DNA of 64,000 nt from Sanyastnella coralliicola (lineage in GTDB: Bacteria; Bacteroidota; Bacteroidia; Flavobacteriales_D; Sanyastnellaceae), in assembly GCF_030845195.1 (NCBI RefSeq), contig NZ_CP132543.1, positions 513,501 through 577,500 on the forward strand, written 5' to 3'. Position numbers and translations under genes: made by a program. The first letter of the stretch is position 1; each line of letters begins with the position of its first letter. Below the pieces are notes generated by a model. It saw only the letters and a list, made by a program, of their open reading frames with translations. It was not told where the DNA came from and searched no databases. Below, piece by piece: positions 1,682-61,149 of the stretch.

Positions 1682-3574
1682 ATGAGTAAAATGACATTCG
1701 GAAAAACAGTGTTCGCTTCACTATTAGGAAGCGCACTTTCATTCTTAGCAGTAGGACTGCTTTTGATCTTCATCGTAACGGCGATGATTGGAGCTGCAAT
1801 TAGCGGTGCCATGCAGGATATTGAAGGAGGCAAGAGTGTCTCAGTCAAAGATCAATCTGTACTTCACATTGAGTTGAACGACCCCATTGTAGAACGTGGG
1901 AATGACAAAGATTTCAAATTCAACCTGAATACATTCGAGCCTGAGGTAAACTTAGGACTGAACCATATCCTTGAAGACATTGATGCGGCAGCGGGAGATG
2001 ATCGCATTGAAGGGATCTTCCTTGATTTGAGTGGTGTGATGGGGTCTCCATCAACGCTTCAGGATGTCCGCCAAGCGATTGTGAAGTTTAAGGAAAGCGG
2101 GAAGTGGGTAATCTCTTACGGAGAAGGATACACGCAGAGCGCTTACTACATCGCTTCAGCTGCGGATGAGGTGTACCTCTACCCAGAAGGACAAATGGAA
2201 TTCTTCGGTTTGTACACTGAGCTGATGTTCTTCAAGAATATGTTAGATAAGCTCGAGGTAGATGTACAAATCGTTCGTGGTCCGGGTAACAAGTACAAGA
2301 GTGCTGTCGAGACCTTCATGTTAGACGAAATGTCTGAAGCAAACCGCGAACAGATTGAGGCTTTCCTTGGTGATATATGGAATCAGATGGTCATCGAAAT
2401 GGGCGCTTCACGAAACCTGTCTTCTGATCAACTGAACACACTAGCAGATAACCTTGAAATCGGGTTGGCAGAAGAAGCTGTTTCCAATGGATTGATCGAT
2501 GGTTTGAAGTACCGCGATGAAATTCTTGATATGCTGCTTGAACGTTCTGGACGAGCCATAGAGGAAGAAGAAAAAGAAGAAGGAGAGGAAGAGAAGAAGC
2601 GAAAGTGGGATTTCTCTGATGATGGCGAGGTTCGCTTTGTGACGCTTCAAGATTACCACTTCGCTGGTGGTAAGACTGACTTTACGGAGATGGAAGAGTC
2701 TACTGACGATGAAGTAGCAGTGATTTATGCTGTAGGTCAAATTCAAAGTGGGGAAGGAGACGATCAAACGATTGGTTCTGATCGTATCGCACGTGCGCTT
2801 CGTGATGCGCGTTTGGATGACGATGTGAAGGCAGTCGTTCTTCGCGTGAATAGCCCTGGCGGTTCCGCGCTAGCGAGTGACGTAATCTGGAGAGAAACAC
2901 AATTGATCAAAGAAGCAGGCAAGCCATTTGTGGTTTCCATGGGAGACCTAGCGGCTTCAGGTGGTTACTACATTGCCGCAGGAGCAGACAAGATCTACGC
3001 CAACGAAAATACCATCACAGGTTCGATCGGTGTATTCGGCATCATTCCGAACATGGAGAAGATGTTTGAGAACAAGATCGGCATCACCTTCGATCGCGTA
3101 AGCACCAACGGTCACGCAGGAATCCTTTCTGCTACTCGTCCGCTCGCTGAAGATGAAAAAGAGTGGATTGATGAAATGATCGTCGACGTTTACGATGAAT
3201 TCTTGCAGCGTGTTGCCGAAGGAAGAGGCATGACAACAGCAGAGGTTGATTCCATTGCTCAGGGTCGTGTTTGGTCTGGAACAGCAGCTAAGAAGATTGG
3301 TTTGGTTGATGAGTTTGGTGATCTAGAAGACGCTATCGCGGAAGCGGCTACGATGGCAGAGCTAGAGAACTATGAAGTGAAAGATCTTCCACGCATGATA
3401 GATCCATTTGAAGAGCTATTGAAGGAATTCGGTGCGACGGCGCAAATGAATGCCTTCATTGAAGAAACAGGAGTGGATGCTGCGTACATTGATCAAATGA
3501 TGCAAGTGAAGAACATGGCTACTGGTGAAGAGATGATTCAAGCGCACATGCCATACTTCTTCGTGATCAAGTAA
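1682..3574 (+). CDS. sppA: Signal peptide peptidase SppA, 67 kDa type (peptidase S49)
   Basis: This membrane serine protease degrades cleaved signal peptides. The 630 residues form the long, duplicated S49 architecture: one N-terminal membrane helix (about 13-37), an N-terminal domain with the catalytic Lys in NKYKSAVE (Lys206), and a C-terminal domain with NSPGGSALAS and the nucleophile in GDLAASGGYY (Ser426). Lys in the first domain and Ser in the second is the known arrangement for the E. coli enzyme. A Glu/Lys-rich linker (about residues 294-312, bases 2562-2607) separates the halves. The gene holds two copies of the intragenic 13-mer, at 2863 and 3331. The next gene starts 2 nt after its stop. 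Confidence 0.95.
   Translation: MSKMTFGKTVFASLLGSALSFLAVGLLLIFIVTAMIGAAISGAMQDIEGGKSVSVKDQSVLHIELNDPIVERGNDKDFKFNLNTFEPEVNLGLNHILEDIDAAAGDDRIEGIFLDLSGVMGSPSTLQDVRQAIVKFKESGKWVISYGEGYTQSAYYIASAADEVYLYPEGQMEFFGLYTELMFFKNMLDKLEVDVQIVRGPGNKYKSAVETFMLDEMSEANREQIEAFLGDIWNQMVIEMGASRNLSSDQLNTLADNLEIGLAEEAVSNGLIDGLKYRDEILDMLLERSGRAIEEEEKEEGEEEKKRKWDFSDDGEVRFVTLQDYHFAGGKTDFTEMEESTDDEVAVIYAVGQIQSGEGDDQTIGSDRIARALRDARLDDDVKAVVLRVNSPGGSALASDVIWRETQLIKEAGKPFVVSMGDLAASGGYYIAAGADKIYANENTITGSIGVFGIIPNMEKMFENKIGITFDRVSTNGHAGILSATRPLAEDEKEWIDEMIVDVYDEFLQRVAEGRGMTTAEVDSIAQGRVWSGTAAKKIGLVDEFGDLEDAIAEAATMAELENYEVKDLPRMIDPFEELLKEFGATAQMNAFIEETGVDAAYIDQMMQVKNMATGEEMIQAHMPYFFVIK
2863..2875 (-). other. Intragenic 13-mer CGCTAGCGCGGAA (exact)
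   Basis: Exact copy inside sppA, read on the minus strand. In the gene's own frame it encodes Ser-Ala-Leu-Ala. Confidence 0.9.
3331..3343 (+). other. Intragenic 13-mer variant CGCTATCGCGGAA
   Basis: Second copy in sppA, differing only at position 6. It encodes Ala-Ile-Ala-Glu. Confidence 0.8.
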
Positions 3575-3576
3575 TC

Positions 3577-4125
3577 GTGAGAAAGAAATTAATACTGAGC
3601 GACCTCGGTCGCATGACTGAAAACGCGTTTAAGGAAGCTAACAAGCTTCCTTTTCGCATTGTACTCGATAACATCCGCAGCGGAAACAACATTGGTTCGG
3701 TATTCCGCACCGCCGATGCGTTTCGTCTGGATCAAATCGTACTAGGAGGAATCACCGCGAAACCACCCCATCGTGATATCTCGAAAACCGCTATTGGCGC
3801 CGAGAATAGCATGGCATGGGAACACTATGAAGACTTGCCCGCACACCTGCGCTCAATGCAACAGGAGGGCTGGAAAATCGCGGTCATCGAACAGGTGGAA
3901 GGATCAACGATGTTGGAAGACTGGAAGCCTTCTTCAAATGACAAATGGGCCGTGGTCATGGGGAATGAAGTCAAGGGGGTAACACAAGAAATTGTAGACC
4001 TCGCAGACTTGATCATTGAGCTACCTCAATTTGGGACCAAACATTCCTTGAACGTTTCCGTATGCACAGGTATCGTCGTATGGGAATACATGCGTTGCAC
4101 AGGACTTTCGAGTCTAAATGCGTGA
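3577..4125 (+). CDS. RNA 2'-O-methyltransferase, TrmH/SpoU family
   Basis: The 182-residue SPOUT-class enzyme uses S-adenosylmethionine to methylate a ribose 2'-OH in RNA. The three SpoU motifs are present: NIGSVFRTADAF near residue 40, VVMGNEVKGVTQEIVDLAD near 127, and the knotted C-terminal LNVSVCTGIVVWEY. The start is GTG at 3577, directly after the sppA stop, so it should be co-transcribed with sppA. The next gene overlaps its end by 8 bp. Size and motifs suit a tRNA methyltransferase of TrmH type, but the exact RNA target is not determinable. Confidence 0.9.
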   Translation: MRKKLILSDLGRMTENAFKEANKLPFRIVLDNIRSGNNIGSVFRTADAFRLDQIVLGGITAKPPHRDISKTAIGAENSMAWEHYEDLPAHLRSMQQEGWKIAVIEQVEGSTMLEDWKPSSNDKWAVVMGNEVKGVTQEIVDLADLIIELPQFGTKHSLNVSVCTGIVVWEYMRCTGLSSLNA

Positions 4126-10503: not shown

Positions 10504-11088
10504 TTATTGCCCGCGTTCACGCAGGAATGTGATCAGCTTTTGAACGGCTAATCCGCGATGAGAAATCAGGTTCTTCTCGGCCTGTTCCATCTCAGCAAAG
10601 GTGCGTGTCTCCCCCTCAGGAGTGAATACCGGGTCATACCCAAATCCCTCTGAACCACTTTTCGCTTCCGCGATAGCGCCTCTACAAATACCTTCAAAGA
10701 GATACTCCTCGCCATCAATAATCAAACAAATGGCCGTGCGAAACTGGGCTGATCGATCTTCTTTGCCCTGCAACTCAGTCAAGAGCTTCGCCATGTTGTC
10801 TTCTGCTCTCTTGGCCGGACCAGCATAACGCGCGGTAATGACTCCTGGTGCTCCGTCTAAGGCATCGACTTCAAGGCCGGTGTCGTCAGCGAAAACATTG
10901 ACGTCATATTTCTCTGCGATGAAACGCGCCTTGATCTTCGCATTCCCTTCGAGGGTGGGTGCGTCTTCTGGAATATCTTCTGTGATCCCGAAATCTTTCA
11001 ATGTTCTGATGTGGTAGGCATCGCCTAACATCTGCGCTACTTCGAGACGCTTATTTTCATTGTTCGTGGCAAAAACGATCTCTTTCAT
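10504..11088 (-). CDS. rdgB: XTP/dITP diphosphatase (RdgB/Ham1)
   Basis: The 194-residue house-cleaning enzyme hydrolyses non-canonical purine nucleoside triphosphates (dITP, XTP) to monophosphates. Family motifs are EIVFATNNENKRLEV at the N-terminus, FADDTGLEVDALDGAPG in the middle, and GFGYDPVFTPEG with ISHRGLAVQKL near the end. It overlaps menE by 4 bp (ATGA), so it is translated as the last gene of the menC-menE unit. It carries a 13-mer variant at 10666. Confidence 0.96.
   Translation of the reverse strand: MKEIVFATNNENKRLEVAQMLGDAYHIRTLKDFGITEDIPEDAPTLEGNAKIKARFIAEKYDVNVFADDTGLEVDALDGAPGVITARYAGPAKRAEDNMAKLLTELQGKEDRSAQFRTAICLIIDGEEYLFEGICRGAIAEAKSGSEGFGYDPVFTPEGETRTFAEMEQAEKNLISHRGLAVQKLITFLRERGQ
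10666..10678 (-). other. Intragenic 13-mer variant CGCTATCGCGGAA
   Basis: In rdgB, differing from the exact word only at position 6. It encodes Ala-Ile-Ala-Glu. Confidence 0.8.
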
Positions 11089-12083
11089 TTTCGAATGACC
11101 TTTCCGGTGATGGTTTCTTCAAATTGTGGACTGAACTCCACGTTTTTTGGGACTTCAAATCTATCAAGTACTGCTTTCATTTGCCCAAGGAGATCGTCAA
11201 CATTTCTTGATGAGGCCTCGATCACCAAAGTAACAGCGCTACCTAGAGTCGCATCGGGCCTGCCGATAACATAGAAACGTTCAGTGATCAGCGCGCGCAG
11301 TTTCTCTTCAATCACTTCTGGCTGCAATTTGATGCCACCTGTATTAATGATGTTGTCGGCACGACCGAGCCAGATGAAACGATGTTCATCATGAAGTTTG
11401 ATCACATCTGTGGTTTCAATGGTACCAACGTGTGGTGTGTCTATTATGAGCGTGTTGTTCTCGCTAGCGCGGAATCGGACACCTGGCAAAGCGCGAAAAG
11501 AAGTACTGAATTCTGGGGATAGTTGTCTGGCCGCAATGTGGGTAATGGTCTCCGTCATACCATACGTTTCAAAGGCTCGGACAGGAGTTTTTTGAAGAGC
11601 TTCGATCAGTTGGTCAGAGGCTGGGGCTCCTCCAATGATGAGTGTTTTCATGTTGTGAAAAGCGGGTTCTTCAAGTGAACACTCCACTTGCATAGGGGTC
11701 ATGGCCACGAAGTCAAACGACGTATTTATTCCAGCTAGCGGATTTGAGCTGGGCGCTGTTACGTGCACATTCCATCCAGAATCAAGCGCCCGGTAGAGCA
11801 TCATTCGTCCAGCAATCTTTGATATAGGTAAGCACAACAACACCTCAGCTCCTTCCTCAATTTGAAAGAATGAACGTGTCATTCGAATGCTTTCCTTCAC
11901 TGCTTCGAGTGAATGCGTGATGACTTTTGGTTGTCCGGTAGATCCGGAAGTGCTGATCTCCAGTTTTTTCTGATCGCGCCAATCTTGGAGCGCGGCATTG
12001 ATCTCATTTACAAAGTTGTCGTCACCAGACAAGTCTTCAGTGAGCGGGTTGATACGTTGGTTATGGAAGATCAATTTGACCAT
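11085..12083 (-). CDS. menE: o-Succinylbenzoate-CoA ligase (AMP-binding)
   Basis: MenE activates o-succinylbenzoate with ATP and CoA in menaquinone synthesis. The 332-residue protein is a compact member of the adenylate-forming family. It shows the phosphate-binding STSGSTGQPK (residues 44-53), ETYGMTETITH, the hinge-region FIWLGRADNIINTGGIKLQP, and the C-terminal catalytic Lys in TGKVIRK. It is shorter than the roughly 450-residue enterobacterial protein, which is common in Bacteroidota. It overlaps menC by 1 bp and rdgB by 4 bp. Confidence 0.94.
   Translation of the reverse strand: MVKLIFHNQRINPLTEDLSGDDNFVNEINAALQDWRDQKKLEISTSGSTGQPKVITHSLEAVKESIRMTRSFFQIEEGAEVLLCLPISKIAGRMMLYRALDSGWNVHVTAPSSNPLAGINTSFDFVAMTPMQVECSLEEPAFHNMKTLIIGGAPASDQLIEALQKTPVRAFETYGMTETITHIAARQLSPEFSTSFRALPGVRFRASENNTLIIDTPHVGTIETTDVIKLHDEHRFIWLGRADNIINTGGIKLQPEVIEEKLRALITERFYVIGRPDATLGSAVTLVIEASSRNVDDLLGQMKAVLDRFEVPKNVEFSPQFEETITGKVIRK
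11462..11474 (+). other. Intragenic 13-mer CGCTAGCGCGGAA (exact)
   Basis: In menE, antisense to the gene. The gene frame reads Phe-Arg-Ala-Ser. Confidence 0.9.
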
Positions 12084-13114
12084 CAGAAATCAAATTTCCA
12101 TGATGCGTCGCCATAATGCAAGGCGGCGTTCTTGACTTCCAGTGGTGAATCAATGTTGTTGTGGAAGAGACGTCCCGTCCCTAATCCTTGCGGCAATGGA
12201 TTTCCAGAGACGGCACACCATTGTGCAATGGCATTGAGGCCAACGTTCGATTCCAGTGCAGAAGTTGCCCACCACTTGATCCCACGCGATTCCGCGCTAG
12301 CGACAAAAGAATCAGCCACACCCAAACCGCCAATAAGACTTGGCTTGAGGATCAGGTACTGCGGCTTGATCATGTCAAGCAGCGCATCGATATCATCACA
12401 GTTGATGAGCTCTTCATCCAGTCCGATGGGAATTGGGGTAGCAGCGCACAAATCAGCCATAGCCTCATGCTGCCCCGCTTTGATCGGTTGTTCGATAGAG
12501 TGAATTTCGAACGGGGCGAGGTCATTCAGTTTAGATAGCGCATTTTCTGGCGTATAAGCTCCATTAGCATCCACACGTAATTCGAAATCAGAAGCGGGAT
12601 AGCGTTCTCTGAATTTTCTCAAGAAATCAAGTTCCAATTCATGATCTCTTGCGCCAATCTTCATCTTGAGAATGGAAAAGCCTTCGGCTACCAGACGCTC
12701 AATCTGAGCGAATAACCCCTCGTGATCGTCCATCCAGATCAATCCGTTCATCGGAATGTCTTGTTGACCGTTGGTGAAATCAGAAGGGTAGAGTTTGTAA
12801 GGATCTTCGGCCTTATAGCTTCTCACGCAACACTCCATTCCGAAGCGTAAAGCTGGAAGGTGTTTCAGTGAAGTCGAATCGAACTCCGCTAAAGAAAATC
12901 TCTTATTGTAAGACTGGAGGGTTTGCTCAATCTCCTCTTCACTATCGATGCTAAGCGTAGGAATAGTAGAGCATTCACCTAAGCCTATGCGTCCCTCGTC
13001 ATCTTCAAGGATGAGAAACCATGAAGGCTTTTGCATCAAGGTATTCCGTGAAGTCTTTGCGGGAATTTTAAAATCCAGATCCTGGCGGATCCATCGGAAA
13101 GTGGGTTGACTCAT
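12083..13114 (-). CDS. menC: o-Succinylbenzoate synthase
   Basis: MenC dehydrates SHCHC to o-succinylbenzoate in menaquinone synthesis. The 343-residue protein carries the enolase-superfamily active site: the KMK motif with the acid/base Lys (150-152), the metal ligands Asp182 (RVDANGAY), Glu208 (SIEQP) and Asp233 (GLDEEL), and Lys257 (LKPSLIGG). It overlaps the neighbours on both sides (4 bp and 1 bp), so acyltransferase-like gene, menC, menE and rdgB form one unit. An exact 13-mer is at 12290. Confidence 0.95.
   Translation of the reverse strand: MSQPTFRWIRQDLDFKIPAKTSRNTLMQKPSWFLILEDDEGRIGLGECSTIPTLSIDSEEEIEQTLQSYNKRFSLAEFDSTSLKHLPALRFGMECCVRSYKAEDPYKLYPSDFTNGQQDIPMNGLIWMDDHEGLFAQIERLVAEGFSILKMKIGARDHELELDFLRKFRERYPASDFELRVDANGAYTPENALSKLNDLAPFEIHSIEQPIKAGQHEAMADLCAATPIPIGLDEELINCDDIDALLDMIKPQYLILKPSLIGGLGVADSFVASAESRGIKWWATSALESNVGLNAIAQWCAVSGNPLPQGLGTGRLFHNNIDSPLEVKNAALHYGDASWKFDF
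12290..12302 (-). other. Intragenic 13-mer CGCTAGCGCGGAA (exact)
   Basis: In menC, sense strand. It encodes Ala-Ser-Ala-Glu, and the flanks extend the match to TCGCTAGCGCGGAATC. Confidence 0.9.
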
Positions 13115-16442: not shown

Positions 16443-18130
16443 TATATCTTGATTCGTTTTTTACTTGTTCTAAATGCTTGTTTCAGCACTTCGTCGCTTG
16501 CGACATCTCTAGTAAAAACTTCCAGGATGGCGCATTGTTCTGAGGCATAGAGGCTTTCTATACCTTGCTTCAGCTCCGTGCGATCTGAGGCTGAAATGTA
16601 TTCGATTCCAAAATGCTTCGCGAGGTGCGATGCATCCTGCGCATGGCGTGTTTCGAAGACCTCTTCCAACGCCGCTGTGCTCGATGGTCCGTCAATGATG
16701 CGGAAGATATTTCCACCTCCATTATTGATGAGAACGATCTTCAGGTTCGAAATGTCTTGTTGATGCCACAATCCATTCACATCGTAGAGGAATGAAATGT
16801 CTCCACTAATGAGCGTTACCACTTTATCGGTGGCTACGGCCATTCCTGCAGCAGTGCTGGTGCACCCGTCAATTCCGCTGGTCCCTCGATTTCCGTAGTA
16901 AAGAATATCTGAACGTTGCTCGAATAGTTGGATGTAGCGAACTACGCTGCTATTCCCCATCTGCAGAATGCTGTCTTGAGGTAGCGCCGGAAGCACATCT
17001 TTGAATACCTGAAGGTCACTCCAACCGGATTCTTCAGCAATCGATTGCTGAATTGCTTCCAGTTTGACGTGGCGATCATACCACTTTGCATGGTAATCAC
17101 TCGTCACCGATTCCGCGCTAGCGAGCACACGGAAAAACTCAGAAGGTCCACAGCTCAATACTTCAGAAAGCTGCTTGAAGGTATCCATGATTCTTCCGTC
17201 TTCATCAATGTGCCAATGTCCTTTAAGCGGTGTTTGGCGCAAGAATGCTTTAATCTTCTTTGAGATAATCTGACTGCCAAAAGTCACGAGCAAATCTGGG
17301 GCGAACCCATCGTGTTCACCGTTTTCAAGCGTCATCAACAGACGGTCAATGCAACTGATGACTTCTCCTTGAGTGCAGTTCGAAGTGGTCTCTGTGAGAA
17401 CCACCACATTTTCACGGTTGGCAATTGCCGCCACAGCTTTTGTCAAGTCGGGATTCGGGAGATGATGTCCCGTGATGATCATGATCTTTTGAAAGCCAGC
17501 CAACTGTTCTTTTAGCTGGATTTTCTGTGACTCAGTCAAGTGTGCCTCAGAAGGCTTGCGTTGAATGACGTTCGGCTGACTATCAGGAAACTCCACGAGT
17601 TCATAGAGTGGCTCGCGCAGCGGAATGTTAATGTGTACAGGGCCACGAACTCGACCTAGAGCCGTGAGCATGGCTTCATTAATCATGCGCTGGTTGTGCC
17701 ATTTGACATCGGCATGATCATCATCTTGTCTCAATTGAATGCTCTTGCGGGCATGCAGATCGAGCAAACCTTGTTGGCGAATCGTTTGTCCGTCACCCTG
17801 ATCTACCCATTCTTCTGGTCGATCAGTCGACATGAACACCAATGGTAGATCTTGGTAATGCGCCTCTGCCATTGCCGGACCATAATTCGCAGCGGCTGTG
17901 CCTGACGTACAGACGATACCTACGGCTTGTTGAAGTTCCTGGGCTAAACCTAAAGCAAAGTAGCCGGCGGCTCTTTCGTCGGGAATAATGTGACAGGAAA
18001 TCTCTGGATGATGATAGAAAGAAAGCGAAACCGGCGCGTGGCGTGATCCTGGAGAAATCACTACATGTTGAATGCCATGGGCACTCACTATTCCGATGAG
18101 GTCTTGAATGACCGGTTTGTCGCTAATCAT
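16442..18130 (-). CDS. menD: SEPHCHC synthase (thiamine diphosphate-dependent)
   Basis: MenD condenses isochorismate with 2-oxoglutarate using thiamine diphosphate. The 562-residue protein shows an N-terminal pyrimidine-binding domain ([40 protein letters not shown]) and a C-terminal ThDP site with the GD...N pattern ([16 protein letters not shown], then [12 protein letters not shown]). A TTG nine bases upstream is possible, but ATG 18130 leaves a clean 12-bp gap after menF. An exact 13-mer lies at 17111. Confidence 0.96.
17111..17123 (-). other. Intragenic 13-mer CGCTAGCGCGGAA (exact)
   Basis: In menD, sense strand. It encodes Ala-Ser-Ala-Glu in a linker-like stretch, with flanks TCGCTAGCGCGGAATC as in menC. 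Confidence 0.9.
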
Positions 18131-18142: not shown

Positions 18143-19120
18143 CTACAATTTTTCAATGGGACTCAAAAGGGCATTTAGCTTATGCCTGGTTTCGTCCCAT
18201 TCCTCGTTGGGCAGCGAGTCAAAGGTAATGCCGCCCCCTGTATATCCTAGTATTCCATTTGAATAGACTTCGAAGCATCGAAGGTTCACATAGAAGTAAC
18301 TATCTCCTTGGTCATCATGCCAACCTAAATACCCTGTATACCATTTGCGATCATGGTCTTCGAGGGCGGTAATGGCTTCGTACGCTGTATCTAAAGGTGT
18401 TCCACACACGGCAGGGGTGGGGTGCAATAAATCGAGGGTACGTGAAATGTCATCTGTTTTAAAGCGAAGCTCACTGCGAATATGCTCGAGATCACCGAAA
18501 CGCACTGTTTCCGGACGACTAATACGCAGCTCTTCTGCACCGCCTTCTTTTAGTCGGGCCTTGATGTAATCAGTCACAATCGATTGCTCCAATGACTCTT
18601 TTTGTCCCCATGGAATCGTATCGTCTTCGTACTTGCGTGTACCAGCCAATGACATCGTCTTGAATCGATCTCCATCTGCCGAGACGAGAATTTCTGGCGT
18701 CGCACCCATCCAACATCCTGCTTCCGGATGATAGAGACAGTATACGAAGGTGTTGGGGTGATTCTTTTTGAGGCTTTGCAGCCAATCAGCGCTCGGCTTC
18801 AGGTCTGCCTTAAAAGTTATCGTTGAAAGCACCACCTTATCCAGGTCACTTTCAATGATCTGTTCAATGGCCTTTTTAATCTTTCGTTGGTGACTCAGTT
18901 CTTGTGTTTCGCTAGCGCGGAACGCCTGAAGGCTTTGAAATGGGATGTGAAAATCAGCAAGGTCAAATGCGACTTTCTTTCCACTGAATTCAATGTGCTT
19001 TTCCGAAGAGTGGAAAGGGGCGAAAACAAAGTTCCCTCCAGTTCCAGTAGGGTCTACTGTGAAGAATGAGTCTTCGTGAGGTGGACTCCAGATTACAAAT
19101 GGCGCTGTTCCTTCGCTCAT
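18143..19120 (-). CDS. menF: Isochorismate synthase (chorismate-binding family)
   Basis: MenF converts chorismate to isochorismate, committing it to menaquinone. The protein has 325 residues, shorter than the roughly 430 of E. coli MenF: the N-terminal part is reduced while the catalytic half is complete. Visible motifs are KVVLSTITF, the substrate-site MGATPEILVSADGDRFKTMSL, AGTRKY, HIRSELRF, LHPTPAVCGTP and YTGYLGWHD. It lies 5 bp after menI and 12 bp before menD. An exact 13-mer is at 18910. Confidence 0.93.
   Translation of the reverse strand: MSEGTAPFVIWSPPHEDSFFTVDPTGTGGNFVFAPFHSSEKHIEFSGKKVAFDLADFHIPFQSLQAFRASETQELSHQRKIKKAIEQIIESDLDKVVLSTITFKADLKPSADWLQSLKKNHPNTFVYCLYHPEAGCWMGATPEILVSADGDRFKTMSLAGTRKYEDDTIPWGQKESLEQSIVTDYIKARLKEGGAEELRISRPETVRFGDLEHIRSELRFKTDDISRTLDLLHPTPAVCGTPLDTAYEAITALEDHDRKWYTGYLGWHDDQGDSYFYVNLRCFEVYSNGILGYTGGGITFDSLPNEEWDETRHKLNALLSPIEKL
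18910..18922 (+). other. Intragenic 13-mer CGCTAGCGCGGAA (exact)
   Basis: In menF, antisense to the gene. The gene frame reads Phe-Arg-Ala-Ser. Confidence 0.9.
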
Positions 19121-21079: not shown

Positions 21080-21081
21080 GA

Positions 21082-25177: not shown

Positions 25178-25178
25178 A

Positions 25179-35436: not shown

Positions 35437-35889
35437 ATGGAAGTCGTTGTTCTTACCCCGGAAGAAACTCGGCCGCTAAGGCACAAGGTGCTTTGGCCTC
35501 ACATTGAGAAAACAGAAGATTGTGTCATTGATATCGATCATCGAGAAGACGCCATCCACCTGGGTGCCATTCATAATGATCAGATCGTTGGTATCTGTTC
35601 GCTGTTTGAGATGACCACACCGAAGCTTGATGATGAGAAGCAGTATCGCTTGCGAGCGATGGCAACTGACCCTGATGTCAGAGGAACAGGGGCGGGAAGA
35701 GCTATTGTAGAAAAAGCGCTGGAGATCATCGCATCCAAAGGCTATGATGTGCTTTGGTGTGATGCCCGCAAAGTAGCCTTGGGCTTCTATGGTCGTATGG
35801 GCTTCGATCGAATTGATGAGTGGTATGAAGTGCGCAATATTGGTCCGCATCAATTGATGTTCTACCGTTTCAACGCTAACGCGGAATAG
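35437..35889 (+). CDS. GNAT-family N-acetyltransferase
   Basis: The 150-residue acetyltransferase shows the acetyl-CoA-binding motif A (YRLRAMATDPDVRGTGAGRAIVEKALE, with RGTGAGRA as the pyrophosphate loop) and motif B (DVLWCDARKVALGFYGRMGF). The N-terminal segment EETRPLRHKVLWPH resembles small soluble GNATs found in many Bacteroidota. The substrate is unknown. It is co-transcribed with the S4 gene (3-bp gap). A 13-mer variant overlaps its stop codon. Confidence 0.88.
   Translation: MEVVVLTPEETRPLRHKVLWPHIEKTEDCVIDIDHREDAIHLGAIHNDQIVGICSLFEMTTPKLDDEKQYRLRAMATDPDVRGTGAGRAIVEKALEIIASKGYDVLWCDARKVALGFYGRMGFDRIDEWYEVRNIGPHQLMFYRFNANAE
35874..35886 (+). other. Intragenic 13-mer variant CGCTAACGCGGAA
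   Basis: The last four sense codons of the GNAT gene (Ala-Asn-Ala-Glu), ending directly before the TAG stop. It differs from the exact word only at position 6. Confidence 0.8.
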
Positions 35890-40971: not shown

Positions 40972-42955
40972 TGTAATCGTAGATTGGGTTGTTCTCCTCC
41001 GTTCGTGGCTCCATGATAGCGCGTGAGAGGTATTTTGGTTGCTTCAAAATTCCTCGCTCAATCATTTCTAGGATGGTTCCGTAGTGCTCCAAAGAAGTTT
41101 TACCAATGAGTAATGGGCGAAGATCATTTCCGTCACTCCAGAATCGATACATTTCGCTAAGTCCGCGTAAGTAGAGGTGGTCTTTCGTGAATCCACCTCC
41201 TCGATAAATACGAGTGACGAGGTAGAACGCTTCATCCACATCCATCTCTAGGTCGTTGACCATGGTGCGGTAGGTCTTCTTGAAATCAGCTCCTTTCACC
41301 ATCATATCGGTGGCGATCACGCGTTGACCCAATTCCTTTAGGCGACGTAAGGTGATGTTCCCACTCAAGTACTCAGACAGAACAGCCAGTCCTTCTTGCG
41401 TCATCGTGTTCACTGGGAAGCCCAGGTTGAACACCTTCAACGGCTGGAGATTGCTATTCATGGTAGTCACCATATGCACTCCAATCTCGTGATGCACCAA
41501 GAACCGCAGTTCCTTCGGGCGGAAAGTCGCGCCCTTCTTGATCATGACTTTCTTCTGGTGGTTTATCACCATCGCATCAGCCACCATGTTGCGAGAGACT
41601 TCAATCTTTCCTTTGAAGCCGTATTCTTCGAAACTCTCTTTGAATAACTCAACAGCTTCTGGTACACCCAATCTCGGTTCCGCGGTAGCGACTTCAACCT
41701 CTGGAAGATGCTGAAGGAACCACGCATTCTTCAGGTCCTTTTCAGAAGGCTCACCGAAATAGCGCATGGAGTTATACAAGAACTTACTGCTGCCAATAGA
41801 CGATAGCATATCGATCTTGTCGCTGAAGGCATTGATCACATCTTGGTAAAGACGTTGGATATGCACATCTGTGATCTTCTCAATCTCCAATCGGTGAATC
41901 TTCCGTTTCAAGTGGAAAGGATCGAATCCAATCGGCTTGTATTCGAATTGTGGGTTGATCGTGCAACGCGACTCGAAGAATCGTTTCTTCTCTTGAGCTA
42001 CGTTGATTGGATTCACCATAGATAACAACTCGAAATTCTTCAACAGGTCATGTAGTGCTGAATCTACCTCCAAGATTGATTCCTGAAGATCATTCGAGAG
42101 GAGGCGACCTTGCTTCTTATGTTCCCATGTGGTGAACTCCCGTGCAAAGTCGTGCGCGTGGTTTAGAATGGCACGCTTGAGCTGCCCCTTGATTGAATTG
42201 ATGACTGCAGGGAAGGGCTCAGCCGTTTCTTCGTTGCAGTAAATCTTCGAGACCTCGGTCGCGAGAACTAAGGTGTTGTCGAAGCTCTTGGTAATGAAGG
42301 CAAGGTTGTACCCTCGTCCGAAGAAAGTATCATTAATAGCAGCGCTCTGAGGGATGCCGTTAGGCAACTCAATGTCTGCCAGTTGATCACGCCACTTTTC
42401 TACGCAAATGCCAAAACGATCATTATCAATACGCTCAGAACCAATATTCCAAACAGGCACTTCACGATCCCAACGACGCCAATTGTAAGAGTGCATGTCA
42501 TAAACCACACAAGCGCCAAAAAGCTCTTCTAGCTTGGCGATCAGCGCGTATGTCACACGATAGTACGCGTCATGCTTCTTGCGCGAACGTTCACGCTCAG
42601 CCTTGGTCAACGCTCTTTTCCAGACCTTCTTACCCCAAGCCTCGTCATATACACAAGTCTCAGGTTCACGGTTGAGATCATATTCAAAACGACTATCCAA
42701 ACCAATGAGTTTGATCGGCATGGAAGAAATGAAGGCACCGGTATAAGGGTCTTCTTCATACCAGCGTTCAAATTCCGAAAGGCGCGTTTTGATCTTCAGC
42801 TCATCGCGAAAGCGATGACCGTCGTGAATGGCCGTACATACATACGGCACGTATTCGTTAATCGAGATTCTAAAACCAGCATCACTGCTCTCCGCCTCGA
42901 AGGTGAGTCCCTCCTGGATGCGGCGAATGATCTCTTCACAACTTAGTTTACGCAT
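40952..42955 (-). CDS. QEGLA-motif/DUF1704 protein with N-formylglutamate amidohydrolase-like N-terminus
   Basis: The 667-residue protein appears to be a two-domain fusion. Residues about 10-260 resemble N-formylglutamate amidohydrolase (VPYVCTAIHDGHRF, ACVVYDMHSYNWRR, FGICVEKWRDQL). The C-terminal 370 residues are the DUF1704 region, with a metalloprotease-like VHHEIGVHM motif and TQEGLAVLSEYLSG, the source of the QEGLA name. It overlaps the upstream ATP-grasp gene by 8 bp, so they are co-translated. The family is conserved in Bacteroidota, but I know of no established function. A small-peptide or amino-acid conjugate pathway is inferred. Confidence 0.8.
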   Translation of the reverse strand: MRKLSCEEIIRRIQEGLTFEAESSDAGFRISINEYVPYVCTAIHDGHRFRDELKIKTRLSEFERWYEEDPYTGAFISSMPIKLIGLDSRFEYDLNREPETCVYDEAWGKKVWKRALTKAERERSRKKHDAYYRVTYALIAKLEELFGACVVYDMHSYNWRRWDREVPVWNIGSERIDNDRFGICVEKWRDQLADIELPNGIPQSAAINDTFFGRGYNLAFITKSFDNTLVLATEVSKIYCNEETAEPFPAVINSIKGQLKRAILNHAHDFAREFTTWEHKKQGRLLSNDLQESILEVDSALHDLLKNFELLSMVNPINVAQEKKRFFESRCTINPQFEYKPIGFDPFHLKRKIHRLEIEKITDVHIQRLYQDVINAFSDKIDMLSSIGSSKFLYNSMRYFGEPSEKDLKNAWFLQHLPEVEVATAEPRLGVPEAVELFKESFEEYGFKGKIEVSRNMVADAMVINHQKKVMIKKGATFRPKELRFLVHHEIGVHMVTTMNSNLQPLKVFNLGFPVNTMTQEGLAVLSEYLSGNITLRRLKELGQRVIATDMMVKGADFKKTYRTMVNDLEMDVDEAFYLVTRIYRGGGFTKDHLYLRGLSEMYRFWSDGNDLRPLLIGKTSLEHYGTILEMIERGILKQPKYLSRAIMEPRTEENNPIYDYIIRAIR
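41678..41690 (-). other. Intragenic 13-mer variant CGCTACCGCGGAA
   Basis: In the QEGLA-type gene, sense strand, differing only at position 6. It encodes Ala-Thr-Ala-Glu. Confidence 0.8.
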
Positions 42956-44129: not shown

Positions 44130-47100
44130 ATGCTAAAGAGAGCGATCCTAGGACTGCTTGCGGTGCTCGCAAGCACTGCGATGATGGCCGATCCCGGTGA
44201 TACACTGGTGGTACAGACCTACACATTCGAAGATCAAAACAACCCGGACACAGATTATGATAGTCCGGGTAGACGCACCTTCACATTCCCTGAAGATGAC
44301 GGCACAACGTACCAAAAAATCTTGATGTACTACACCCTGAAATGTTTCGAAGACGGAACAGCGGGAGGTCTCGGATTCCCTTGTGGAGAGTGGGATTACC
44401 TAACCTACAATTACCTCTACGATTACACAGGAGTGTTAGACTCGAATTTCTTGACGCACCCTTTCATGTTGATCGATAATCAAGATTTCGTAACGCAAGA
44501 TCTTGTGGTTGATCCACTGTACAACTTCATCCAGTACGATTACGAAATTGCGAATGACGTGACTGTAGAGAACGAAGTGATGGTTACGTTCGCTGAAGAT
44601 GGAACGGTGAATCCAGCACCAGTTCGTACGGATATGCACCGTAGCCGTTTTCAATTCTTATACACAGCACAAGAGTTGTTAGACATGGGTCTGACCGCTG
44701 GTGAGATTGGCTACATCGAACTTGAAATTGGTGACGCTTGGGATATGGCAGACCTTCTTCGTTTGAAAGTTGGCGCTACCGCGGAAGAAGATTTGACCTC
44801 TTGGTATGATGGAGACATGACTGAAGTTCGCGTCGGTGAATTTATGCCTGGCGGCGAAGGATGGTACCCTTTCCAGTTCACTGAGGCCATCATGTGGGAC
44901 GGAATGAGCTCATTGGTATTTGAATTAAGTGCGCACGTTGAAGAAGCTTTTTCTCCAACACAGTTCAAAGGGGTAAATTCTACAATCAACTCTGTTTCGG
45001 CAGCAAGCAATGATCGTTACATCTCGTTCAATAACGTGGATGAGGTGAAAGTTCCAGGCGAAGCATTTGCAGCGGTACAAGATGAAATCACCATTGCCTT
45101 TTGGGTGAATGGAAATGAAGATATTCAGCCGAGCAACAGCACAGTATTTGAAGGAGTAAATAGCAGTAACCAGCGCGTTGTGAACAGCCACCTTCCATGG
45201 GGTAATGCTCGTGTGTACTGGGATGCTGGTCAGTCTGGAGGCTACGATCGTATAGACAAAGCAGCGAACACTGCCGACTTTGAAGGACGCTGGAACCACT
45301 GGGCATTCACCAAGAATGCAGTAACAGGTGAGATGTTTGCCTACTTGAACGGAGAACTTTGGCACTCAGGAACGGATCGCTTCCGCACTATGGAAGACAT
45401 CGTGAAGTTCAGTATCGGATCTGCTGCAGGTTGGTCGAATTTCTACAATGGAAAGATGGACGAATTTGCCATCTGGGAGGTAGCCCTCGATGAGGAGACA
45501 ATCGCCGCTTGGATGAACCGTTCGATTACTATGGATCACCCGAACTACGATGACCTTGTGGTTTACTACGACTTCAACGAAGTGAATGGAGAGCCCGTGC
45601 TTGATCATAGTGGAAACGGATTCGACGCAGCTCCACACGGGGCCCCAGATCGCCAGTACCATAATGGAGATGATCTATTCTTGAACCCTGAATTGGTGGC
45701 CTTCCGTCCTTCAATTCAAATTCAACAAGGAGATTACACGATTAACACAACTACAGATAGCTACACGGAACAAGTAATGGTAGCTCCAGTGTCGGTGTCA
45801 TCGTGGGACGTAGAGAACTACGATGTATATGTAACTGACATTGATTACTACTGGCTTCCACAAGACACTTATGTATACGACGAGGATGGGAATATATTGG
45901 AAACGATTCCATTCGAAGGAGATGCGGTTCCATTTGTAAACCAAACGCTAGAATACTACGGTGCTCCATATGAAGTAGTTGATCGCTATGAAATCGGACG
46001 ATTCATCACTCCTTACGGAATCAACCTTGACCTAGAAGAAGGGTGGACTTGGATCTTCGATGTTACTGATTACGAGCCACTGCTTCATGGAGAGGTAGAG
46101 CTTGAAGCAGGAAACTGGCAAGAGCTCTTGGATATGAAGTTCATGTTCATCGAAGGAACTCCTCCACGTGACGTGAAGCGCGTAGAAGCATTCTGGAAAG
46201 GAACCTACAACTTGAACTCATTTGATGAGAACGTAACGGCCTACCAGATTGATGTAGAAGAAGGGGAGGAGACTTTCCGTTTGAAAACTCGTGCTTCTGG
46301 GCATGGCTTCGGACAAGGAAACAACTGTGGCGAGTTCTGTTACAACACGCACTCAGTAAAAGTGAATGGTGAAACGCAATGGAGTTGGGAGATTATGCAG
46401 GAATGTGCGGATAACCCACTTTACCCACAGGGAGGTACATGGATTTACGACCGCGCTGGTTGGTGTCCGGGAGCTCCTGTGAAAACTCAAGACTTTGAAT
46501 TGACCCCACTCGTAGACAACATGGAATCGTTCACTGTTGATTACGATATCGAATATGATCCAGATGGGAACTACCGATTCGAAGGACAGGTAATCGCCTA
46601 CGGAGAGCCGAACTTCACCACGGATGTGGAAATCGAAGAAATCATGGCACCGAGCGATATGCGCATCTTGAGTCGTATGAACCCAATTTGTGATGACCCA
46701 GTAATCCGCATCAAGAACAATGGTTCTGCACCGTTGACTAGCTGTGAGATTACCTACGGTATCGGTGAAAACATGAATACGTATACATGGACAGGTGAAC
46801 TCGGGTTCCTAGAGTCTGAAGACGTAACAGTGAGCTACGATGACCCAGGATTCTGGAATGGAGATGAAGAAGAGGTGTTGGTTTTCGAGGCTACGGTGAC
46901 TTCGGCGAATGGATTTACCGATGAGAACCAATTCAATAATCACGCGACTTCAACGTTCAATCGTCCACCTGTATATACGTATGGGGAGGAGGATGATAAC
47001 CGCATCATTATCTGGACAAAAACGAACAACACACCTTGGGAGACGGAGGTCCGCATTGAAACAATGAATGGAACAACAGTTTACTTGCGTGATGATTTCG

Positions 47101-52316: not shown

Positions 52317-53492
52317 ATGAGTGATTCTCGCTACCAACAACGCGGAGTTTCCGCATCCAAAGAAGACGTCCACGCAGCTATTAAGAACGTGGATAAAGGT
52401 CTATTCCCTCACGCCTTCTGTAAGATCGTACCTGATACGTTAACAGGCTCTGATGAGCACTGTATTGTCATGCACGCTGATGGAGCGGGTACGAAGTCTT
52501 CACTGGCTTACATCTACTGGAAAGAAACAGGTGATGCTTCCGTGTGGAAAGGAATTGCACAAGACGCTCTCGTGATGAACCTCGATGACCTCCTTTGTGT
52601 AGGAGCCACAGATAACATCTTGCTTTCATCTACCATCGGACGAAACAAAAACCTCATTTCGGGTGAGGTTATCTCTGCGATCATCAATGGTACAGAAGAG
52701 TTGCTTGATGAGCTAAGGTCTCAAGGCATTGGTATCAAGTCAACGGGTGGTGAAACTGCCGACGTAGGCGACCTCGTTAGAACAATTATCGTTGATTCTA
52801 CGGTCGTGTGTCGTATGCGTCGTGATGAGGTCATTGACAATGCGAACATTGCTCCAGGACAAGTCATCGTTGGGCTTTCTTCTTTCGGGCAAGCGAACTA
52901 CGAGACTGAATACAATGGTGGAATGGGAAGTAATGGACTTACTTCTGCTCGTCACGATGTCTTCCATAAGGTATTGGCAGATCGTTACCCAGAAACCTAT
53001 GATCCAGATGTGCCAAAGGATTTGGTATACACTGGTAGCAAACAACCTACGGAAGCAGTTGAAGGTGTCCCAGTTGATGCTGGTAAGTTGGTTCTTTCTC
53101 CAACGCGTACTTATGCGCCTGTGATTAAGGCGATACTTTCGAAGCACCGCGATGCAGTCAAAGGAATGGTGCATTGCTCAGGAGGAGCTCAGACGAAAGT
53201 GCTTCATTTCGTGAATGACGTTCATGTCATCAAAGACCAGCTATTCGATTGCCCACCATTGTTCAAGTTGATTCAAGAGCAATCGGGTACAGATTGGAAA
53301 GAGATGTACAAAGTCTTCAATATGGGGCACCGTATGGAGATTTATACTGATGCCGCTAGCGCGGAAGCGATGATCGAAATCGCCAACTCATTTGGAGTTG
53401 AGGCGCAAATCGTCGGACGCGTAGAAGAGGGTTCAGGCAAGCACCTGACCATTTCTTCGGAGTTCGGAACCTTCGAATACAAAGAAGCTTAA
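52317..53492 (+). CDS. purM: Phosphoribosylformylglycinamidine cyclo-ligase (AIR synthetase)
   Basis: PurM closes the imidazole ring to give AIR in de novo purine synthesis. The 391-residue protein has MHADGAGTKSSLAYIYW, DALVMNLDDLLCVGA, STGGETADVGDLVRTIIVD and MVHCSGGAQTKVLHF, the PurM-type fold with the nucleotide site between its two halves. It is longer than the roughly 345-residue E. coli enzyme, as is usual for Bacteroidota. It is first in a tight purM-prfA-pyrF unit, with a 3-bp gap to prfA. An exact 13-mer is at 53354. Confidence 0.93.
   Translation: MSDSRYQQRGVSASKEDVHAAIKNVDKGLFPHAFCKIVPDTLTGSDEHCIVMHADGAGTKSSLAYIYWKETGDASVWKGIAQDALVMNLDDLLCVGATDNILLSSTIGRNKNLISGEVISAIINGTEELLDELRSQGIGIKSTGGETADVGDLVRTIIVDSTVVCRMRRDEVIDNANIAPGQVIVGLSSFGQANYETEYNGGMGSNGLTSARHDVFHKVLADRYPETYDPDVPKDLVYTGSKQPTEAVEGVPVDAGKLVLSPTRTYAPVIKAILSKHRDAVKGMVHCSGGAQTKVLHFVNDVHVIKDQLFDCPPLFKLIQEQSGTDWKEMYKVFNMGHRMEIYTDAASAEAMIEIANSFGVEAQIVGRVEEGSGKHLTISSEFGTFEYKEA
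53354..53366 (+). other. Intragenic 13-mer CGCTAGCGCGGAA (exact)
   Basis: In purM, sense strand. It encodes Ala-Ser-Ala-Glu. Confidence 0.9.
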
Positions 53493-56047: not shown

Positions 56048-57340
56048 ATGAACGAAGACTACCTACAGTATTTGTGGCGTTTCCAGCAGCTTGGAAACAC
56101 CCAATTAACCACGACATCAGGCAAAGATGTGAGTGTTTTGTTCCAGGGCCACTGGAATCGAAATGCCGGTCCTGATTTCCTTGAGGCGAAACTGCGAATT
56201 GGAAAGGAACTCTGGATTGGGAGTGTTGAAATCCATCTCAGATCTTCTGATTGGCGAAGGCACCATCACGTGCATGACCCCGCCTACCAAAACGTGATTC
56301 TGCATGTGGTGTATGAAGATGATGAACCGCTGGTCAATGCGGCAGGACAGGAAGTGCCGACCTTGATTGTTGAACGTCATTTAGACAGCGATCATTACGA
56401 CTACTACCGCCATTTTATTGAACACCATTCCGCGCTAGCGTGTGAAAAGAACTTGGGAGAAGTAGATGAATTCAAACGTAATAATTGGCTTCACCGCATG
56501 GCCATTGAACGACTGGAACGACGGACAGAACGTGTGAAGGCATTGCTCGAACGTTACCATCAAGACTGGAACGCGGTATGGTGGCATATGCTCTGCCGGT
56601 CATTCGGATTCGGCTTAAATCAAATCGCCTACGAACAATTGGCCATGACCTTGAATTGGAAGTGGCTCGCTAAGATGGTTGGGAATCCACAGAAGATTGG
56701 AGACGTGTTGCTTTGCCATTCTTCATGGATCGAATTGGATAAGCGACTGGAGCCAAATCAAAAGCCACGTGAAAACTACCAACACTTCCAACGATTACAT
56801 GAAGTGACTCCCATAGCTCCTTCGAATTGGCGTCGAGGTAAAATGAAACCCGCAAATCACCCCAGGGTGCGGCTCGGACAGCTGACTGCACTCATTGAAA
56901 ATGGCTGGTTACAATGGAGAAAAGCCAGCATGTGCGAGGACCTAGATGAACTAATGCAAGTACTTGATGTTAGTATTGCAGTTGATCACCTCACGCTTCA
57001 GTTAGAAGCACGTGAAACAGCTCGAATAGGAAGGGCAGCGCGAGAGCGTATTATTACCAATGCGGTCATCCCGGTTGTATTCTATTTCGGACGACTCCAC
57101 GGAGATCAAAAGCTGATCGATCGTATGCTCGATTGGCAAGACCGACTAAAACCAGAAGACAATCGGATAATCCGAATGTGGACGCAGACCGGCTGGAAAC
57201 CGCGAAGCATGCTCGAAACGCAAGGACAACTCCATTTATTCGAGCAATATTGCAGCGGAAAAAAATGCTTATCTTGCCTCATAGGGATTACACTGTTGAA
57301 TGACCACAAAAATGATCCAACGAATACTCGACATCTTTGA
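56048..57340 (+). CDS. DUF2851 family protein
   Basis: The 430-residue cytosolic protein matches the Bacteroidota DUF2851 family. It has the N-terminal NEDYLQYLWRFQQLG, GHWNRNAGPDFLEAKLRIG, WIGSVEIHLRSSDWRRHHHV and NVILHVVYEDDEPLV. Conserved Trp, Asp and His residues in this part suggest an enzyme-like core; the rest is helical. Its function is unknown. It overlaps the PspC gene by 41 bp. An exact 13-mer is at 56428. Confidence 0.9.
   Translation: MNEDYLQYLWRFQQLGNTQLTTTSGKDVSVLFQGHWNRNAGPDFLEAKLRIGKELWIGSVEIHLRSSDWRRHHHVHDPAYQNVILHVVYEDDEPLVNAAGQEVPTLIVERHLDSDHYDYYRHFIEHHSALACEKNLGEVDEFKRNNWLHRMAIERLERRTERVKALLERYHQDWNAVWWHMLCRSFGFGLNQIAYEQLAMTLNWKWLAKMVGNPQKIGDVLLCHSSWIELDKRLEPNQKPRENYQHFQRLHEVTPIAPSNWRRGKMKPANHPRVRLGQLTALIENGWLQWRKASMCEDLDELMQVLDVSIAVDHLTLQLEARETARIGRAARERIITNAVIPVVFYFGRLHGDQKLIDRMLDWQDRLKPEDNRIIRMWTQTGWKPRSMLETQGQLHLFEQYCSGKKCLSCLIGITLLNDHKNDPTNTRHL
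56428..56440 (-). other. Intragenic 13-mer CGCTAGCGCGGAA (exact)
   Basis: In the DUF2851 gene, antisense. The gene frame reads Ser-Ala-Leu-Ala. Confidence 0.9.
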
Positions 57341-60227: not shown

Positions 60228-60231
60228 TGAC

Positions 60232-61149
60232 ATGAAACTTTTCGATTCTTTCTGGCGCTCTCTCGAATTAAACAAGAGGGAGCGGTCAGGAATGATCGTC
60301 TTGGCTTTCATTTTGCTAGCCATTATCGCTGCACAATCTATTCGTAGGCAGTGGGTGTATGAAGAAGAATCAGATCCACGGCTCGCCATGGTCTTGATTC
60401 CTGAGCCTCCCGAAGATCTGACTATTCTCAAAGAGGAGAGCTATTTCCCTTTTAATCCGAATGAACTAGCTGACAGTGGTTGGCTCGCTCTCGGCTTGTC
60501 TGAACACGAGCTTCAAGGGCTTCGGAACTACATGCGTTCCGGTGCTAGATTTCAGACCAGAGAAGACCTTGACCGGGTTTATTCCATCCCAGACCCATGG
60601 CTTGAGCGCCATGCAGATGACCTTCGTTTTTATCCTCCAGAAGTTCCTACTGTTGATGTTGATGTTTCTGATCTCGCTAGCGCGGAAACGAGTATGACCA
60701 CTGAGCAAAAGCCATTACTTGAATTGAATACGGCGGATAGTATTGACCTGCAAGAGCTCGCTGGAGTGGGTGCTTATTCCGCTCGTAAGGTGCTGCGTTT
60801 TAGAGATGCTTTAGGTGGTTTCGCTAGCGCGGAACAGCTAGCTGAAGTTTGGGGGCTTCATCCTGAAGTTCGTACAAAACTCATCGCTCAAGTCACCATC
60901 GATTCCACGCTAGTGAAAAGAATAGCCATTGACACAGCGGGAAAAAGAACCATCGCTGCCCACCCTTACATTTCATGGAAAGCAGCCAAGGCATTGGTTA
61001 ATTATCGACAGCATCATGGCCCATTCAATCAGCTTGAAGACATTCGTGGATGTTTGTTGGTGAGTGATAGCTTGTATCGAAAGATCGAACCCTATCTTTA
61101 CCTCCATGATCGAAGAACGCATCCATCAAACGGTGAGAACCGTCCCTGA
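60232..61149 (+). CDS. Helix-hairpin-helix protein, ComEA-related
   Basis: The 305-residue protein has one N-terminal membrane helix (GMIVLAFILLAIIAAQ) and three ComEA-type helix-hairpin-helix repeats: LGLSEHELQGLRNYMRSGARF (about 83-130), ELNTADSIDLQELAGVGAYSA (about 163-215), and AHPYISWKAAKALVNYRQHHG (about 243-295). Such domains bind DNA backbone; ComEA is the DNA receptor in natural transformation. A role in DNA uptake is inferred, as many Bacteroidota have such proteins of unproven role. It carries two exact copies of the 13-mer, the densest site in the window. It overlaps apt by 44 bp. Confidence 0.85.
   Translation: MKLFDSFWRSLELNKRERSGMIVLAFILLAIIAAQSIRRQWVYEEESDPRLAMVLIPEPPEDLTILKEESYFPFNPNELADSGWLALGLSEHELQGLRNYMRSGARFQTREDLDRVYSIPDPWLERHADDLRFYPPEVPTVDVDVSDLASAETSMTTEQKPLLELNTADSIDLQELAGVGAYSARKVLRFRDALGGFASAEQLAEVWGLHPEVRTKLIAQVTIDSTLVKRIAIDTAGKRTIAAHPYISWKAAKALVNYRQHHGPFNQLEDIRGCLLVSDSLYRKIEPYLYLHDRRTHPSNGENRP
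60675..60687 (+). other. Intragenic 13-mer CGCTAGCGCGGAA (exact)
   Basis: First copy in the ComEA-related gene. It encodes Ala-Ser-Ala-Glu just before the second helix-hairpin-helix repeat. Confidence 0.9.
60822..60834 (+). other. Intragenic 13-mer CGCTAGCGCGGAA (exact)
   Basis: Second copy in the ComEA-related gene, 147 bp from the first and in the same orientation and frame. It lies inside the second helix-hairpin-helix repeat. Confidence 0.9.

Follow-up and report, generated by a model that had tools for sequence, protein, structure and literature searches.

A stretch of 64,000 nucleotides of the Sanyastnella coralliicola chromosome (contig NZ_CP132543.1; hereafter the window) carries a short word of 13 bp, CGCTAGCGCGGAA and its closest forms, in 16 copies that all lie within called genes. 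An earlier note on this DNA had listed these copies, nine on the plus strand and seven on the minus strand, and all were found as given. What is this word, and why should it be kept in so many genes? Here we show that it is not a linear word but a mini-hairpin, CGC-TANC-GCG, followed by an invariant GAA tag; on the opposite strand the unit reads TTC-[CGC GNTA GCG]. As to its function we put forward a hypothesis that is based on sequence comparison: the best explanation seems to be a folded, structure-coded mark of self-DNA that is driven by DNA exchange, to which we assign a probability of about 0.42. Genes were called with a simple script of our own and not with a published gene caller.

Abundance and phylogenetic distribution of the word

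The number of copies in the window compares with a mean of 0.01 and a maximum of one copy in dinucleotide shuffles, in agreement with the initial estimate that far less than one copy would be expected at random. The whole genome (G000, a single contig of 4.10 Mb) contains 770 canonical copies, 401 on the plus and 369 on the minus strand, and a control search of the same genome with the reversed pattern returned none. For further counts a G000 sample was used that consists of the window and 60 stretches of 20 kb (1.264 Mb, 31% of the genome) and contains 250 canonical copies. A codon-frequency model predicts 0.23 copies for the coding part of this sample, where 235 were observed, and an order-5 Markov model predicts 0.23 occurrences of CGCTAGCGCGGAA in a 464-kb sample, which has 63. 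Comparison with Markov and codon-aware expectations had been proposed in the earlier note as a check, and it places the word far above expectation. Chance or base composition as the source of the word is ruled out by the shuffles, the reversed control and the two models.

Tagged hairpins are found all along the sampled chromosome at a density of approximately one per 4 kb. The number of copies per 20 kb approximately follows a Poisson distribution (G000: mean 4.95, variance 5.51; 60 stretches) and close pairs of sites are not in excess (22 versus 18.4 expected and 9 versus 8.4 expected). Instead of being confined to one region or one reading frame, the word is genome-wide and is read in five frames over both orientations, which rules out a repeat at the protein level and bears out the earlier view that the constraint acts on DNA and not on a peptide.

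The sister species G001, which is 93% identical to the window over the aligned bases, has 667 copies of the canonical word; one copy is present in the congener G002. Among 399 genomes of the order, more than three copies were found in G000 and G001 only and three or fewer elsewhere. Of 80 prfA-relative loci from other records, the word occurs in a single one, namely that of G001. A phage origin was rejected: in one scan of viral contigs, the 55 stretches that matched a 17-position form had a single match each, and no contig contained several copies.

A mini-hairpin with a fixed tag

The structure of the word is revealed by its variants. In a first G000 sample, variants with two mismatches pile up at the pairs 1-10 (9 of 12 Watson-Crick) and 2-9 (10 of 10), and Watson-Crick combinations likewise make up 10 of 13 and 8 of 9 such variants, respectively, in G001. 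In the larger G000 sample, pair 1-10 is C-G in 250 cases, G-C in 28 and A-C in 5, with at most 2 for any other combination; pair 2-9 is G-C in 250 cases, A-T in 19 and C-G or T-A in 5 each, again with at most 2 for the others. Pairs 3-8 and 4-7 are nearly invariant in G000 and hence provide little information. Fully paired non-canonical stems of the type NNN-TANC-NNN-GAA were found 79 times in the G000 sample compared with 15.5 expected. When the canonical stem was left out, the two pairs were complementary in 77 and 85 of 125 contexts in G000 (shuffle means 36.6 and 35.2; none of 2000 shuffles reached the observed values) and in 30 and 36 of 60 contexts in G001 (shuffle means 16.8 and 18.1); duplicates had been removed for this analysis and contexts with N excluded. 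These compensatory stem changes show that the hairpin is kept, and we regard the evidence for the structure as strong. They are predicted neither by a methylase site nor by a fixed word such as HIP1 of cyanobacteria, a very frequent palindromic octamer (GCGATCGC), with which the word had also been compared.

The loop is constrained as well. At TTC-CGC-NNNN-GCG sites in G000 it conforms to GNNA in 276 of 289 cases (250 GNTA, 22 GNRA and 4 GNCA), and GNNA loops closed by C-G are unusually stable in DNA mini-hairpins. Around the unit, there is a preference for C at the fifth base ahead of the stem and for A at several places behind it. A smaller count of wobble types pointed to the TTC strand as the functional one, and a wider count was not decisive. 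The triloop class CGCC-NNN-GGCG was rejected as part of the unit, since GAT (30 cases) comes after it more often than GAA (26 cases), and GAC follows in 18.

The congener G002 has a form of its own, in which ATCC is followed by a 5-bp hairpin with the loop TTTT or TTCT (TTYT). With the core CGC required, 92 of 92 distinct contexts have a Watson-Crick combination at the outer pair and 90 of 92 at the next one, compared with shuffle means of 28.5 and 33.9. When all five pairs were left free and duplicates removed, 93 of 133 contexts were fully paired and 31 different stems were seen, whereas the 11 remaining permutations of ATCC together gave 3 of 514. Hairpins of this genome that were scored without requiring the tag are preceded by ATCC in 92 of 116 cases, sites near the ends of stretches and contexts with N being excluded. 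The sequence ATCCNNCGCTTNTGCG occurs 476 times in G002, is absent from G000 and G001 and has zero or one copy in other relatives (60 searched). The G002 form is spread more evenly than a Poisson distribution would predict (mean 5.36, variance 2.32 per 20 kb; 25 stretches). A third form, CATTT-GCC-loop-GGC, was detected in G008 (4.6 Mb), which belongs to a different genus of the same family, and in its congener G027: CATTTGCCGNAGGC is present 198 times in G008, 11 times in G027 and zero to one times elsewhere among the relatives. In an 80-kb sample of G008 the single stem GCC is combined with loops of three or four bases (GAA, GGA, GAAT, GGCA and TTTA), and here pairing is suggested by the shape together with the variable length of the loop, and not by covariation.

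These forms bear on the possibility that we are dealing with an ordinary DNA uptake sequence or uptake signal sequence (DUS/USS), i.e. a linear double-stranded word read by a pilin, with the hairpin being incidental. Copy number, the mostly genic position, the occurrence on both strands and the existence of dialects all resemble DUS, for which dialects between related species (PMC3630211, in excerpt) and an intragenic orientation bias (PMC2346458, in excerpt) have been described. The nearly free, compensated stems of G002, on the other hand, cannot arise from the reading of a linear duplex, and we consider a conventional DUS very unlikely. The likeness to uptake words that had been pointed out for the window accordingly holds for the genome-wide, strand-neutral occurrence and for versions that differ between related species, and fails for the linear double-stranded word. 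The free stems of G002 also weigh against a fixed duplex site of a restriction-modification system.

Placement in genes and evolution of the sites

Positions relative to genes were determined for 249 sites of the G000 sample, sites near the ends of stretches being excluded. Sense frame 2 (AxAE) accounts for 138 of them, frame 1 for 17 and frame 0 for 2; 39 and 38 sites are antisense in two further frames, 14 are intergenic and one straddles the edge of a gene. The statement that the word occurs only inside genes is therefore correct for the window (16 of 16 copies, read as AxAE, FRASE, SALA or RYRG) and not for the genome. Given a coding fraction of 0.885 (11.5% non-coding), approximately 29 intergenic copies would be expected compared with the 14 seen. 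Sense and antisense sites are present in a ratio of 158:77, near the 163.8:71.2 of the codon model, so that the overall bias requires no RNA-level cause; individual frames depart from the model (antisense frame 2, 39 versus 5.4; antisense frame 0, 38 versus 65.8). Along the genes, successive fifths contain 45, 43, 46, 49 and 52 copies of the G000 word, unlike the G002 form, which is commoner near both gene ends (20, 11, 10, 4 and 21; 66 genic copies, overlapping stretches included).

An element acting at the level of mRNA, be it in processing, in stability or as a protein-binding hairpin, would fit some of these data. Covariation of a hairpin together with a constant loop and flank is characteristic of RNA elements, and in G002 the ratio of antisense to sense for the tag strand is 56:10, compared with 47.6:18.3 in the codon model (66 genic copies, overlapping stretches included), so that most mRNAs would carry one and the same strand of the hairpin. 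However, a third of the genic copies of G000 lie in the other orientation, near the expectation from codon usage, the window has no Rfam match at the gathering cut-offs (0 matches), and the dominant loop, GNTA, is not of the GNRA type that is stable in RNA. Among the alternatives weighed here, we regard an RNA element as the least probable.

Replication strands were assigned with an origin at approximately 3.6 Mb and a terminus at approximately 1.6 Mb, both derived from GC skew. By hand sum, 127 sites fall on the leading and 123 on the lagging strand, which rules out a replication-polar motif of the Chi or FtsK-orienting polar sequence (KOPS) type. In a wider sense, a Chi-type signal could protect or process single strands in the recombinational repair of breaks. 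The occurrence of roughly one site per 4 kb along the whole sampled chromosome is in favour of such a signal, as Chi has a density close to one per 4 kb in Escherichia coli and is read as single-stranded DNA. The absence of a leading or lagging bias and the fact that Chi is not a hairpin count against it, and we consider this explanation quite unlikely.

How the sites arose was addressed by protein alignments between G000 and G002, in which the rows for G002 are best hits and not reciprocal ones, some of them distant. In the homologue, 5 of the 44 sites from G000 and 7 of the 34 from G002 have a gap nearby; among these 34, four were counted twice owing to overlapping stretches, and without them 6 of 30 are near gaps. 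With so few gaps at aligned sites, the sites look as if they were gained by substitution, and mobile insertion is unsupported. In hits with at least 40% identity, residues at G000 sites are identical to those of the homologue in 66 of 180 cases (0.37, compared with 0.55 beside the sites) and residues at G002 sites in 67 of 179 (0.37, compared with 0.59; overlapping stretches included). The sites either fall at weakly conserved residues or have altered them. Once present, they change slowly: between G000 and G001, 28 of 32 alignable sites are intact, and the core shows 4 substitutions in 384 positions (1.0%) compared with 7.6% in the flanks, i.e. it evolves about seven times more slowly.

The individual sites of the window are as follows. 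The gene at 1691-3574 contains two canonical copies, CGCTAGCGCGGAA at 2863..2875 (minus strand, antisense) and CGCTATCGCGGAA at 3331..3343 (plus strand, sense). CGCTATCGCGGAA is found again at 10666..10678 (minus; sense in gene 10504-11088) and at 40273..40285 (plus; sense frame 0, read as RYRG, in gene 39589-40971). Another five canonical copies lie at 11462..11474 (plus; antisense in gene 11085-12083), 12290..12302 (minus; sense in gene 12083-13036 as called), 17111..17123 (minus; sense in gene 16442-18130 as called), 18910..18922 (plus; antisense in gene 18143-19120) and 20720..20732 (minus; sense in gene 20450-21079). Further along, CGCTAACGCGGAA at 35874..35886 (plus) is located at the end of gene 35488-35889 (as called), and CGCTACCGCGGAA is present at 41678..41690 (minus; sense in gene 40952-42955) and at 44774..44786 (plus; sense in gene 44130-47588). 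The last four canonical copies are those at 53354..53366 (plus; sense in gene 52317-53492), at 56428..56440 (minus; antisense in gene 56048-57340) and, both in the sense orientation of gene 60232-61149, at 60675..60687 and 60822..60834 (plus). Thirteen of the 16 sites are intact in G001, and those at 10666, 18910 and 60822 have one substitution each. The G002 homologue of gene 52317-53492 carries the form of G002 at the place aligned to site 53354.

It had been noted that all variation falls on one base, a description that is incomplete even for the window. Two paired stem variants, CTCTAGCGAGGAA at 32256..32268 (plus) and CACTAGCGTGGAA at 60903..60915 (minus), have the 2-9 pair altered on both sides, and the first of them falls within the region 20733-35873 that had been taken to be empty. 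Three loop variants have the tag-strand loops GTGA (CGCTCACGCGGAA, 37151..37163, plus), GGGA (CGCTCCCGCGGAA, 37584..37596, minus) and GGCA (CGCTGCCGCGGAA, 61495..61507, plus). A hairpin-like sequence, GCCTGGCGGCGAA at 44846..44858 (plus), in which stem and loop are both altered, is possibly due to chance.

Other repeats were observed in the course of the analysis. Intergenic arrays of 7-base units (GTGGACC/GTGGACT and GTTCGTG) occupy positions 5160-5450 of the window and have dozens of scattered matches in G001, and other short tandem-like units are present in the G002 samples. Intergenic repeats in G002 (C2; L078, L079 and L052) consist of AATCGCGTCCCTAC adjoining an inverted GGACGCGAT, several of them being tandem copies of approximately 83-130 bp. 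A second hairpin of G002 (C2; L049, L052, L059, L079 and others), CAG-CGCATACTTGCG-CTG, is intergenic in 13 of 13 sampled copies. At L054 (G002; period of 1041 bp) and L206 (G003) there are long genes containing repeated units, which probably encode repetitive surface proteins. CTTGTAACTA, found in G002 at L054, L065 and L074, is read in one frame in 13 of 13 copies and, unlike the hairpin words, looks like a repeated protein motif; GCATGTAACTACG of G000 and G001 resembles it.

Candidate readers and comparison with known systems

Since pairing is needed but no given stem is, the signal appears to be recognized in the form of a folded single strand, and the occurrence of copies in both orientations of genes makes DNA a better candidate for it than mRNA, a view against which the orientation excess in G002 counts. 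That it serves as a self-recognition mark for DNA exchange is less certain. If so, the folded single-stranded DNA (ssDNA) would arise during import, transfer or recombination of DNA, and fragments with a hairpin would be imported, protected or recombined with higher frequency. Hairpin alleles could then spread through the population by molecular drive, even at a cost to the protein sequence, and a reader of altered specificity would give rise to new hairpin versions. Putative readers are a HUH protein similar to the transposases associated with repetitive extragenic palindromic (REP) elements (RAYT, or TnpA-REP) or an ssDNA-binding protein of the competence machinery. The apparent origin of sites by substitution, their dispersal over the genome, their persistence and their replacement between species would all match biased exchange as it has been proposed for DUS/USS. 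In its full extent the proposal, which we make tentatively and with slightly more reserve than the general one, is that hundreds of mostly intragenic sites, whose identity lies in a folded ssDNA tag and mini-hairpin, constitute a version-changing signal for self-recognition, or a mating barrier, in the DNA exchange of Bacteroidota.

Several observations weigh against a self-DNA mark of this kind. The 3-bp hairpin of G000 has little stability, with a nearest-neighbour DNA energy of -2.7 kcal/mol, which is no better than that of shuffles, and single-site folding energy sets apart from shuffles only the form of G002, not the hairpins of G000 and G008. The free-stem test was weak in G008: 12 of 309 and 10 of 309 contexts were fully paired where approximately 5.4 were expected in each case, and the excess is due to one stem only, GCC. 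The three forms in five genomes of two genera are all the carriers shown. No comparable word was detected in samples of 52-80 kb from G003, G007, G010 and G013; an apparent word in G003 proved to be a repeated protein stretch, and those in G007 and G013 were clustered repeats. The antisense excess of the G002 form leaves room for a strand-specific role. ComEC, finally, is present in nine of nine genomes, with or without a detected form, and hence does not discriminate between them. The last two points, on the pilus proteins of G002 and on the RAYT-like genes, are taken up in the following.

A pilin of the ComP_DUS type was matched in G000, G001 and G008, i.e. in three of the five carriers, just above the cut-off (28.9 bits for the pilin of the G000 cluster versus 27.3), and the search with this family gave no match in G002 or G027. 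An ATPase of the PilB/GspE type was matched in four of the five carrier genomes, and family searches revealed neither this ATPase nor the pilin in G002; a pilus-based reader is therefore unlikely to be common to all carriers. At approximately 2.20 Mb in G000 (L289), the ComP_DUS pilin, the GspE/PilB ATPase and a secretin-like gene (our own open reading frame reading) lie in a row, and the same arrangement is seen in G008; G027 has the ATPase and the secretin-like gene. The 20-kb stretch of G000 from 2200001 contains no canonical word. For a conventional DUS, the pilin beside the ATPase and the secretin-like gene in G000 and G008, together with the pilin in G001, is a favourable point; the score barely above the cut-off and the missing matches in G002 count against it. 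Riemerella, which belongs to the Flavobacteriaceae and is naturally competent, requires ComEC, DprA, ComF and RecA as well as proteins that do not resemble the known machinery (PMC8459023, in excerpt).

The most serious rival is the REP/RAYT system, in which a HUH protein of the Y1 type recognizes a single-stranded tag and hairpin, which it nicks or mobilizes; on this view our copies would be short relatives of REP elements. The anatomy is common to both, a small hairpin that follows a short tag on its 5' side, and TnpA-REP proteins recognize tag-plus-hairpin ssDNA. In the published REP_Mb, GTAG lies two bases from a hairpin with a stem of 5 bp and a loop of 4 nt, and cleavage takes place on ssDNA (PMC8266576, in excerpt). 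RAYT-like genes are also present. By protein search, Y1 matches of this kind numbered three in G000, three in G001, six in G002 (one with a stop), two in G008 (one of just 36 residues), one in G027, two in G003 and none in G010. Pfam found one Y1 transposase match in five of seven genomes, which looked uninformative; the protein search detected more copies, and three RAYT-like proteins scored 45-61 bits with NCBIfam NF047646, under its cut-off of 80.

The surroundings of three RAYT-like genes could be read in G000 and G001. A paired variant of the word lies 325 bp from the gene at L029, which is unremarkable at a density of one per 4 kb, whereas the gene at L205 has no copy in the 3.3 kb around it and that at L038 none in the 3 kb before and 0.3 kb after it. 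Two of three readable genes thus lack a copy in the stretch read, and the repeats that border the third, the RAYT-like gene at L029:1800-2900 (G001 C1), are ordinary GTAG REPs, GTAGGGATGGAT(GAA)ATCCATCC. These represent a separate element, the hairpin of which has six copies in the G001 sample. Moreover, the tags are TTC, ATCC and CATTT instead of GTAG (or CGTC), and G003 has two RAYT-like matches, yet no form was detected in 52 kb. Tagged palindromes are described as mostly intergenic, with intragenic ones regarded as insertions (PMC3733652, in excerpt); the copies studied here are mostly intragenic (14 of 249 intergenic), without a sign of insertion and without dimers. On balance, we consider an origin as REP-like elements unlikely, although it is to be taken seriously.

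A literature search, which largely did not extend to subscription papers, revealed no report of a dispersed word coded by a hairpin, nor of an uptake word in Bacteroidota, consistent with the earlier note, whose author knew of no such word in this lineage. The known genome-wide self-marks, DUS, USS and Chi, are linear words. If the proposed self-DNA mark is real, a mark defined by pairing would mean that a cell checks the identity of DNA once it is single-stranded, and the question of how Bacteroidota distinguish their own from foreign DNA would become testable. A tag followed by compensated stems also provides a computational handle for finding further systems of this type.

Compared with known systems, the tagged hairpins are similar to DUS/USS in their hundreds of copies on both strands, the mostly genic position, the dialects, the lack of any sign of insertion and the higher frequency of one orientation in the reading frame. 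They differ from DUS, which is linear and fixed, in the conservation of pairing, in a stem that can vary almost freely in one form, that of G002, and in that this carrier species has no match to a pilus ATPase. With REP elements they share the tag and small hairpin and the presence of RAYT-like genes in the genome; the tags are different, however, the stem has 3 bp in two of the three forms, and the copies are intragenic and undimered. Chi occurs at a similar density, but the hairpins show no strand polarity and their pairing is conserved. HIP1, too, is a frequent short word, whereas the unit described here is a tagged stem-loop whose stem changes in pairs around the loop TANC.

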